A stretch of 64,000 bases of DNA from Viridibacillus arenosi. Lineage in GTDB: Bacteria; Bacillota; Bacilli; Bacillales_A; Planococcaceae. Below the pieces are notes generated by a model. That model was not told the origin of the DNA, searched no databases, and saw only the letters and a list, made by a program, of their open reading frames with translations. The stretch lies in assembly GCF_001955655.1 (NCBI RefSeq), contig NZ_MSPW01000001.1, forward strand, positions 496,001 through 560,000. The letters run 5' to 3'. Shown here piece after piece: positions 48,329-49,830 of this stretch. Made by a program: the position numbers and the translations under genes. The first letter of the stretch is position 1. Each line of letters begins with the position of its first letter.

Positions 48329-48754
48329 TTACTGAATGATGTAGGAAGTAATGTAAACTTCTTGTACCTTACCGTCTTGCATCAGTTCATTAAATCTTGT
48401 TTTTAACGTTGTTTCGAGCATTTTCTTTCCTTTTTTTCCTTCTAAATCACCTTTTGTCATCTCTGACATTTCTTCAATTACAATACTCTTCACTTGGAAA
48501 TCACGTTTACCGATTTCTTCAGCAGCTTTTTTGCTATCAGTTTGGATTTTTAGTGAAATTTTAACAAAATTTGTTCCGGCAAGGTTTGTTGTCAATTCAG
48601 GAACATCTACAGAAGCTTCGATGATATCATCGATACTTGGTTCTTTGGCACTTCCTTTGTTCAACTGATTGACAGTTACCAATGCAATAACACCAAGCAG
48701 TGTAATTGAAACTAAGATAATCAACATAATGGTTAAAAGTTTGTTATTCTTCAT
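48329..48754 (-). CDS. fliL: Flagellar basal body-associated protein FliL
   Basis: 141-aa single-pass membrane protein that supports stator function. Membrane helix at about 6-28 (LLTIMLIILVSITLLGVIALV) and an extracytoplasmic FliL domain with DLEGKKGKKMLETTLKTRFN. Start set at ATG 48754 with AGAGGTG upstream; an in-frame GTG at 48763 is part of that site. It overlaps swrD by 11 nt. Confidence 0.92.
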   Translation of the reverse strand: MKNNKLLTIMLIILVSITLLGVIALVTVNQLNKGSAKEPSIDDIIEASVDVPELTTNLAGTNFVKISLKIQTDSKKAAEEIGKRDFQVKSIVIEEMSEMTKGDLEGKKGKKMLETTLKTRFNELMQDGKVQEVYITSYIIQ

Positions 48755-48965
48755 CTTCTTCACCTCTTAAGTGCGGGTTTGATAGGAGCTGAACACTGTT
48801 GTAGAAAGCAATCATACGATTACTCACTTCTTTCTCAGTTTCTAATACAACATATTTTCGTCCGGTCGTTAACGTAATCGTCGTATCAGGAAACTCCTCG
48901 ACCGATTCTATGTATAAAGCATTTAATGAGAATGGTTTACCATTTAATTTAGTTACTGTAATCAT
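48744..48965 (-). CDS. swrD: Swarming motility protein SwrD (FlbD/YlzI family)
   Basis: 73-aa protein MITVTKLNGKPFSLNALYIESVEEF-like at its start, with PDTTITLTTGRKYVVLET, the FlbD family pattern. In B. subtilis SwrD raises flagellar torque for swarming. I chose ATG 48965 by family length; it has no Shine-Dalgarno in the usual window, but AAGGAGG lies upstream beyond a perfect stem-loop (see the separate feature). An in-frame GTG at 48986 lies in the hairpin loop and would add seven residues. Confidence 0.88.
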   Translation of the reverse strand: MITVTKLNGKPFSLNALYIESVEEFPDTTITLTTGRKYVVLETEKEVSNRMIAFYNSVQLLSNPHLRGEEDEE

Positions 48966-49010
48966 AGGAAATAAGGGCCGAGTCACGAGAGCCGACCCAG
49001 CCCCCTCCTT
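48965..49010 (-). promoter_or_regulatory. Shine-Dalgarno separated from the swrD start by a stem-loop
   Basis: Minus strand order: AAGGAGG (49004-49010), arm GGGCTGGGTC (48994-49003), loop of 9 nt, arm GACTCGGCCC (48975-48984), TTATTTCCT (9 nt), ATG (48963-48965). The arms pair over all 10 positions, eight Watson-Crick and two G-U. If folded, the Shine-Dalgarno and the ATG are 9 nt apart. It could alternatively act as a weak terminator or processing site after flgE. Confidence 0.65.
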
Positions 49011-49035: not shown

Positions 49036-49830
49036 TTATCGTTTTAAGTTAACAAGCTCTTGTAAAATTTCATCTGATGTAGTGATAATACGTGTATTCG
49101 CCTGGAAACCACGTTGCGCTACGATCATATCAGTGAATTCTTCTGATAGATCTACGTTGGACATTTCGAGAGCACCAGAAGCGATTACACCAATACCCTT
49201 TAGACCAGCTGTGCCTACTGTAGGTGCCCCTGAGTTTGAAGTTTCATTATAATAATTAGAACCTTCCTTAGATAAACCTCCAGCATTTGGGAACTTAGCT
49301 AATTCTAATTGACCTGCTTTTTGCAATACACCTGCTTCATCAACATAATCTACAGACCCATCTTTACCGACAGACATACTTTGAGCAGTTGTAGGAATAT
49401 TTATTACTCCAGCAGTTCCTTTTAAATACTTACCTTCAGCATTAACTAGGTCTCCATTTTTATCCATATAAAAGTTCCCAGCACGTGTATACTTTAAGTT
49501 TTTCCCATCCTTATCCATAACAACAAAGAATCCATCACCAGAAATCGCTAAATCCAACACTCGGTTAGTGGTTTGCAATGAACCACCTTCATGCATTGTA
49601 TCTATTGCAGCAATTTGAGAACCTAAGCCAATTTGTTTTGGGTTTGTACCTCCAGTAGTAGCAGTCGGCGCTGAAGCACCTGCGCTTGTCTGTGAGAATA
49701 CATCTTTAAACACGACGCGACCTTTTTTGAACCCGTAGGTATTAACATTGGCGATATTGTTACCGATCACATCTAATTTTGTTTGGAAATTTTTAAGACC
49801 ACTGATGCCTGAATACATTGAACGTAGCAT
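49036..49830 (-). CDS. flgE: Flagellar hook protein FlgE (FlgE/F/G family)
   Basis: 264-aa hook/rod family protein starting MLRSMYSGISGLKNFQTKLD, with the NNIANVNTYGFKKGR N-terminal motif, ISGDGFFVV, and the C-terminal SNVDLSEEFTDMIVAQRGFQANTRII. In B. subtilis the gene at this position (after flgD) encodes the hook and was once named flgG; length and position agree. Preceded by an 81-nt gap holding two hairpins. Confidence 0.92.
   Translation of the reverse strand: MLRSMYSGISGLKNFQTKLDVIGNNIANVNTYGFKKGRVVFKDVFSQTSAGASAPTATTGGTNPKQIGLGSQIAAIDTMHEGGSLQTTNRVLDLAISGDGFFVVMDKDGKNLKYTRAGNFYMDKNGDLVNAEGKYLKGTAGVINIPTTAQSMSVGKDGSVDYVDEAGVLQKAGQLELAKFPNAGGLSKEGSNYYNETSNSGAPTVGTAGLKGIGVIASGALEMSNVDLSEEFTDMIVAQRGFQANTRIITTSDEILQELVNLKR

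Follow-up and report, generated by a model that had tools for sequence, protein, structure and literature searches.

Split ribosome-binding sites, in which a hairpin lies between the Shine-Dalgarno (SD) sequence and the start codon, have been described for genes 38 and 25 of phage T4. Their hairpins shorten a spacing of 22 nt to 5 nt in gene 38 and one of 27 nt to 11 nt in gene 25; initiation is reduced by mutations that destabilise the hairpin, and the structure of gene 25 is backed by probing (PMC3014915). For gene 25, conservation does not extend beyond close T-even phages (PMC3014915). For Escherichia coli rpsA, a discontinuous SD has been proposed (PMC1805508). Bridged sites are rarities that so far have been proved mainly in phage T4, and the locus analysed here would represent a cellular case that extends across many families. 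The start region of swrD in the window (the whole stretch of 64,000 nucleotides of Viridibacillus arenosi DNA under analysis) displays the same order of SD, hairpin and start codon as the T4 genes, with the spacing cut from 38 to 9 nt. The T4 sites belong to phage genes and their function was demonstrated by mutation and probing, whereas swrD is a chromosomal operon gene whose layout occurs in many families and is known from sequence. Like swrD, rpsA is a cellular gene, with an RNA fold proposed to assemble its ribosome-binding site. The rpsA model, which was later disputed, involves three hairpins and a ribosome-binding motif in two parts; by contrast, swrD has one intact strong SD and one hairpin.

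The swrD gene (48744..48965, minus strand) encodes a protein of 73 amino acids that matches the Pfam family FlbD (PF06289), and starts at the ATG at 48965-48963. It is located between a flgE-type hook gene (49036..49830, minus strand), which lies just upstream of the SD-hairpin element, and fliL (48329..48763, minus strand), which lies just downstream and overlaps the end of swrD. The gene preceded by the element is needed for swarming power in Bacillus subtilis, where SwrD gives power to the flagellar motors during swarming (PMC9195833, PMC6878767) and where an FlbD-family match is present. The only strong SD of swrD, AAGGAGG (49004..49010, minus strand), is at an aligned spacing of 38 nt from the ATG, which is too far for a normal site, and swrD has no other usable SD, whether near the ATG or elsewhere. 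A 29-nt hairpin (48975..49003, minus strand) begins right after the SD and is formed by a 5' arm GGGCTGGGTC (49003-48994), a 9-nt loop GGCTCTCGT (48993-48985) and a 3' arm GACTCGGCCC (48984-48975). A 9-nt spacer, TTATTTCCT (48966..48974, minus strand), connects the stem to the ATG, and the 10-bp hairpin would bring the effective spacing to 9 nt. The earlier note had given the coordinates of the SD, hairpin and ATG exactly, including the sole SD 38 nt from the ATG and the end of the hairpin 9 nt before it. Its description of the stem as perfect is valid for the RNA, in which all 10 pairs are standard, but not for a DNA palindrome, because two of them are G-U.

For 64 of the 68 window ORFs, the SD is normally spaced (7.7 +/- 1.9 nt), and the ordinary genes of the 798-kb contig have a similar value of 7.8 +/- 2.0 nt. 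The four exceptions comprise swrD, fliI, a small ORF located after infB and one ORF that lies at the edge of the window. Both fliI (ATG at 54778-54776, minus strand) and the small ORF (12740-12738, minus strand) have no SD, and their ATG overlaps or abuts the preceding stop codon, an arrangement that suggests translational coupling.

SwrD is present in 235 of the 261 genomes of the window's family and in 208 of the 299 genomes sampled from the class. Nearly all the swrD upstream regions that were fetched from the family and deduplicated have the order SD, hairpin, 6-9 nt and start codon, and the carriers include Lysinibacillus, Sporosarcina, Ureibacillus, Solibacillus, Psychrobacillus, Kurthia and Rummeliibacillus, among others. 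The same order with different stem sequences is found in Lederbergia and 12 other family groups. When strict limits are set for the hairpin energy (at most -8 kcal/mol), the 3' gap (4-13 nt) and the 5' gap (at most 6 nt), 144 distinct swrD upstream regions retain the layout. They are distributed over 13 family groups (the window's and 12 others), with one doubtful f27 case disregarded in the number of groups. The comparison of these sequences indicates that the swrD element is conserved and not a one-genome curiosity. The element has no Rfam match above the gathering score, only chance matches being obtained, and the literature searched, which includes few subscription papers, yielded no description of a split site, either at swrD or at any other gene of Bacillota.

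The pairing of the stem is supported by covariation. RNAalifold analysis of 49 family sequences yields a single helix, GGGCCGG with CCGGCCC, located just after the SD, which is left free. In this alignment, 98.5% of the cells are paired and double changes occur in six of the seven pairs; none of 500 shuffles attains either the pairing percentage or the covariation score, and the pairing signal collapses when the partner strand is slid. These are the compensatory changes in related genomes that the earlier note would expect of a functional stem. An alternative register that overlaps the 3' end of the SD was also considered; 90% of its cells pair, but with zero covariation. In the window, the 29-nt hairpin has a predicted energy of -18.2 kcal/mol and a z-score of -3.55, with none of 200 shuffles folding as well, and the median z-score over relatives is -3.2. 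A G-rich sequence folds readily, and a chance hairpin without function could in principle arise in this way. The probability of this explanation is negligible, and it is refuted because the stem covaries; the z-scores also speak against it, as does a family covariance model that finds one strong match in each of the relatives searched, at swrD.

The behaviour of the spacing provides further evidence. Among 163 relatives that were loosely classed as having the layout, many of them closely related and thus not independent events, and with some errors of the automatic SD and hairpin classing (for example, L190), the raw distance from SD to start is 36.7 +/- 6.5 nt, with a range of 22-81 nt. The bases outside the hairpin, which define the effective spacing, amount to 9.0 +/- 2.7 nt with a median of 10 nt. 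Raw spacing follows hairpin length closely (r = 0.93) and is uncorrelated with effective spacing (r = -0.06), and none of these relatives has an SD at normal spacing downstream of the hairpin. The gap from stem to start codon is 6-9 nt in 133 of the 163 cases; the spacer, whose fixation at 9 nt the earlier note had named as a check, is nearly constant. An extreme case is L010, a Psychrobacillus, with a 68-nt hairpin between the usual flanks. At the other extreme, the hairpin is absent in four species (three distinct sequences) of one genus of the window's family, in which the SD is located about 14 nt from the ATG. In two of these species, the flanks are nearly identical to those of a sister that has the hairpin (TAATAGAGGAGGCTTAG / AATCGATATG). 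Since the hairpin is present in the other members of the family, its absence in the four species is probably a natural loss, and suggests that removal is tolerated in nature when the SD is brought close to the start.

Taken together, the compensatory changes, the near-fixed spacer, the constant effective spacing and the loss of the hairpin with an SD near the ATG uphold the bridging of SD and ATG that the earlier note had proposed after T4 gene 38. We consider it likely, on the basis of these comparisons, that swrD has a split ribosome-binding site, with a looped-out hairpin between flgE and swrD that bridges the distant SD to the ATG. In such a mechanism, the SD would pair with 16S rRNA as the 30S subunit binds, and the hairpin would be looped out in its folded state, giving an SD located 38 nt away the effect of one at a distance of about 9-10 nt from the ATG. 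In line with this, the hairpin was retained in 154 of 161 sequences when the SD and AUG were held single-stranded in the folding model. We infer that ribosomes use the SD and the ATG of swrD without unfolding the hairpin.

A competing explanation is that the hairpin serves mainly as a cistron-boundary element, that is, a partial terminator, a 3'-end protector or a processing site after flgE, with the upstream SD being incidental. There is a described precedent in E. coli, where the end of the galE mRNA is protected by an intercistronic hairpin (PMC9239205). The resemblance is in the position at a cistron junction; the galE E-hairpin protects an mRNA 3' end, whereas the swrD hairpin is placed between an SD and a start codon (PMC9239205). 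Additional support comes from outgroup families, in which the flgE-swrD gap contains a hairpin upstream of a normally spaced SD. Because these outgroup hairpins precede a normal SD, the hairpin may not exist for bridging; the gap hairpin may be older than the split layout, or may have arisen repeatedly for a different reason. In outgroup loci L137, L145, L149 and L205-L208, the gap hairpins that precede a normal SD are strong, and some of them have an SD-like GGAGG inside the stem. The window hairpin, with its tail ATTTCCTATG, fits a loose terminator pattern, but at the rate of chance (one found, against 0.9 expected in shuffles), and the relatives mostly lack a T tract. The tails after the stem are T-poor, with a median score of 1.2 and a score of 3.1 in the window, compared with about 5.9 for an ideal tail. 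A boundary role also leaves unexplained the 6-9-nt 3' gap, the constancy of the effective spacing and the absence of a downstream SD, and does not agree with the four species that have no hairpin. As the main function it appears rather unlikely to us. Alongside the bridging of the split site, the hairpin may delimit or protect the boundary between the two cistrons, and a weak terminator or a processing or stability role may constitute an extra function.

The spacer sequence contains a UUCCU (48966-48970, minus strand) that can pair with the AGGAG of the SD, a feature not mentioned in the earlier note, and RNAfold extends the window hairpin by these pairs. At 37 C, the GGAGG of the SD is mostly predicted to be unpaired with a probability of only about 0.2-0.4, with a median of 0.26 over relatives. 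The predicted cost of freeing GGAGG is 5.4 kcal/mol, and 5.9 kcal/mol in the window, compared with a median of 2.85 kcal/mol for ordinary GGAGG genes. Because this cost is higher than in ordinary genes, initiation may be damped, and the bridging structure may also inhibit. The predicted folding is consistent with a spacer that may partly mask the SD in the window's genus, thereby lowering initiation somewhat. Only Viridibacillus, Rummeliibacillus and some Kurthia keep a UCCU at this position. In L012, L014, L022 and L023, which are Solibacillus-like genomes, a segment just upstream of the SD may pair with the start codon region in an outer helix, UCAUUG/CAAUGA.

These features could also point to a regulated switch. 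In such a switch, the SD would be covered when the hairpin slips or becomes longer, and the equilibrium would respond to temperature, a protein or an RNA. The UUCCU of the window, the cost of freeing the SD and an SD-overlapping register that can form across the family are in line with such a switch, but the masking register shows no covariation, the UUCCU is confined to the genus and its near relatives, and the hairpin is absent in some species. The core stem, in addition, is predicted to remain at least 0.95 paired up to 70 C. Overall, we regard a switch as improbable. An RNA thermometer in particular was rejected, since the core pairs are not predicted to melt in the physiological range. 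The stability of the core argues against a thermosensor in either direction, and the stem energies, about -14 to -19 kcal/mol, are alike in thermophilic Ureibacillus and in Psychrobacillus. Both observations fail to support the suggestion in the earlier note that melting by temperature would act as an off switch. SD-masking RNA thermometers share with swrD a hairpin in the initiation region; in swrD, however, the covarying register does not involve the SD, and the predicted stability of the stem is too high for physiological melting. In our reading, the hairpin probably acts as a static structural spacer and not as a temperature switch.

A start at the GTG at 48986, within the loop, was another alternative raised for this locus. 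This codon is in frame and located 17 nt after the SD core. It is absent from V. arvi and V. soli, the other two Viridibacillus species, protein alignments begin at the ATG, and an in-frame stop codon occurs between SD and ATG in 61 of the 163 relatives. Initiation at the GTG is thereby refuted by conservation and has only a very slight probability.

A general scan for split sites was performed on one 798-kb contig of this genome, comprising 838 ORFs. Among the genes of this contig that have no near SD, the SD-hairpin-start order is restricted to two. One is swrD; the other, located outside the window, is a CNNM/CBS/CorC_HlyC gene (locus L284; G000:C11:271563-272870, minus strand), which has a TTG start behind AGGAGGTGA and a hairpin. 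The SD-hairpin-TTG layout of the latter is kept in relatives, with double changes in five of the six stem pairs, and has no Rfam entry. It is an even prospect, in our estimate, that split sites are an unrecognised and deeply conserved mode of initiation for chromosomal genes of Bacillota, arisen independently at swrD (in at least 13 families) and at the CNNM-family gene, with the 30S subunit routinely accepting folded hairpins during the translation of operons. Start-site callers may miss or shift the starts of such sites. The paired stem changes, the one very long hairpin and the natural losses at swrD offer a set of variants for measuring the tolerance of the 30S subunit to a hairpin between SD and start. 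Two further features were observed at the CNNM locus: positions 942-1171 of L284 (plus strand) have a sub-threshold Rfam match to the cspA thermoregulator (35.3 bits, against a gathering score of 78), and a terminal loop like CCCUCAUUYGGG is common to many relatives.
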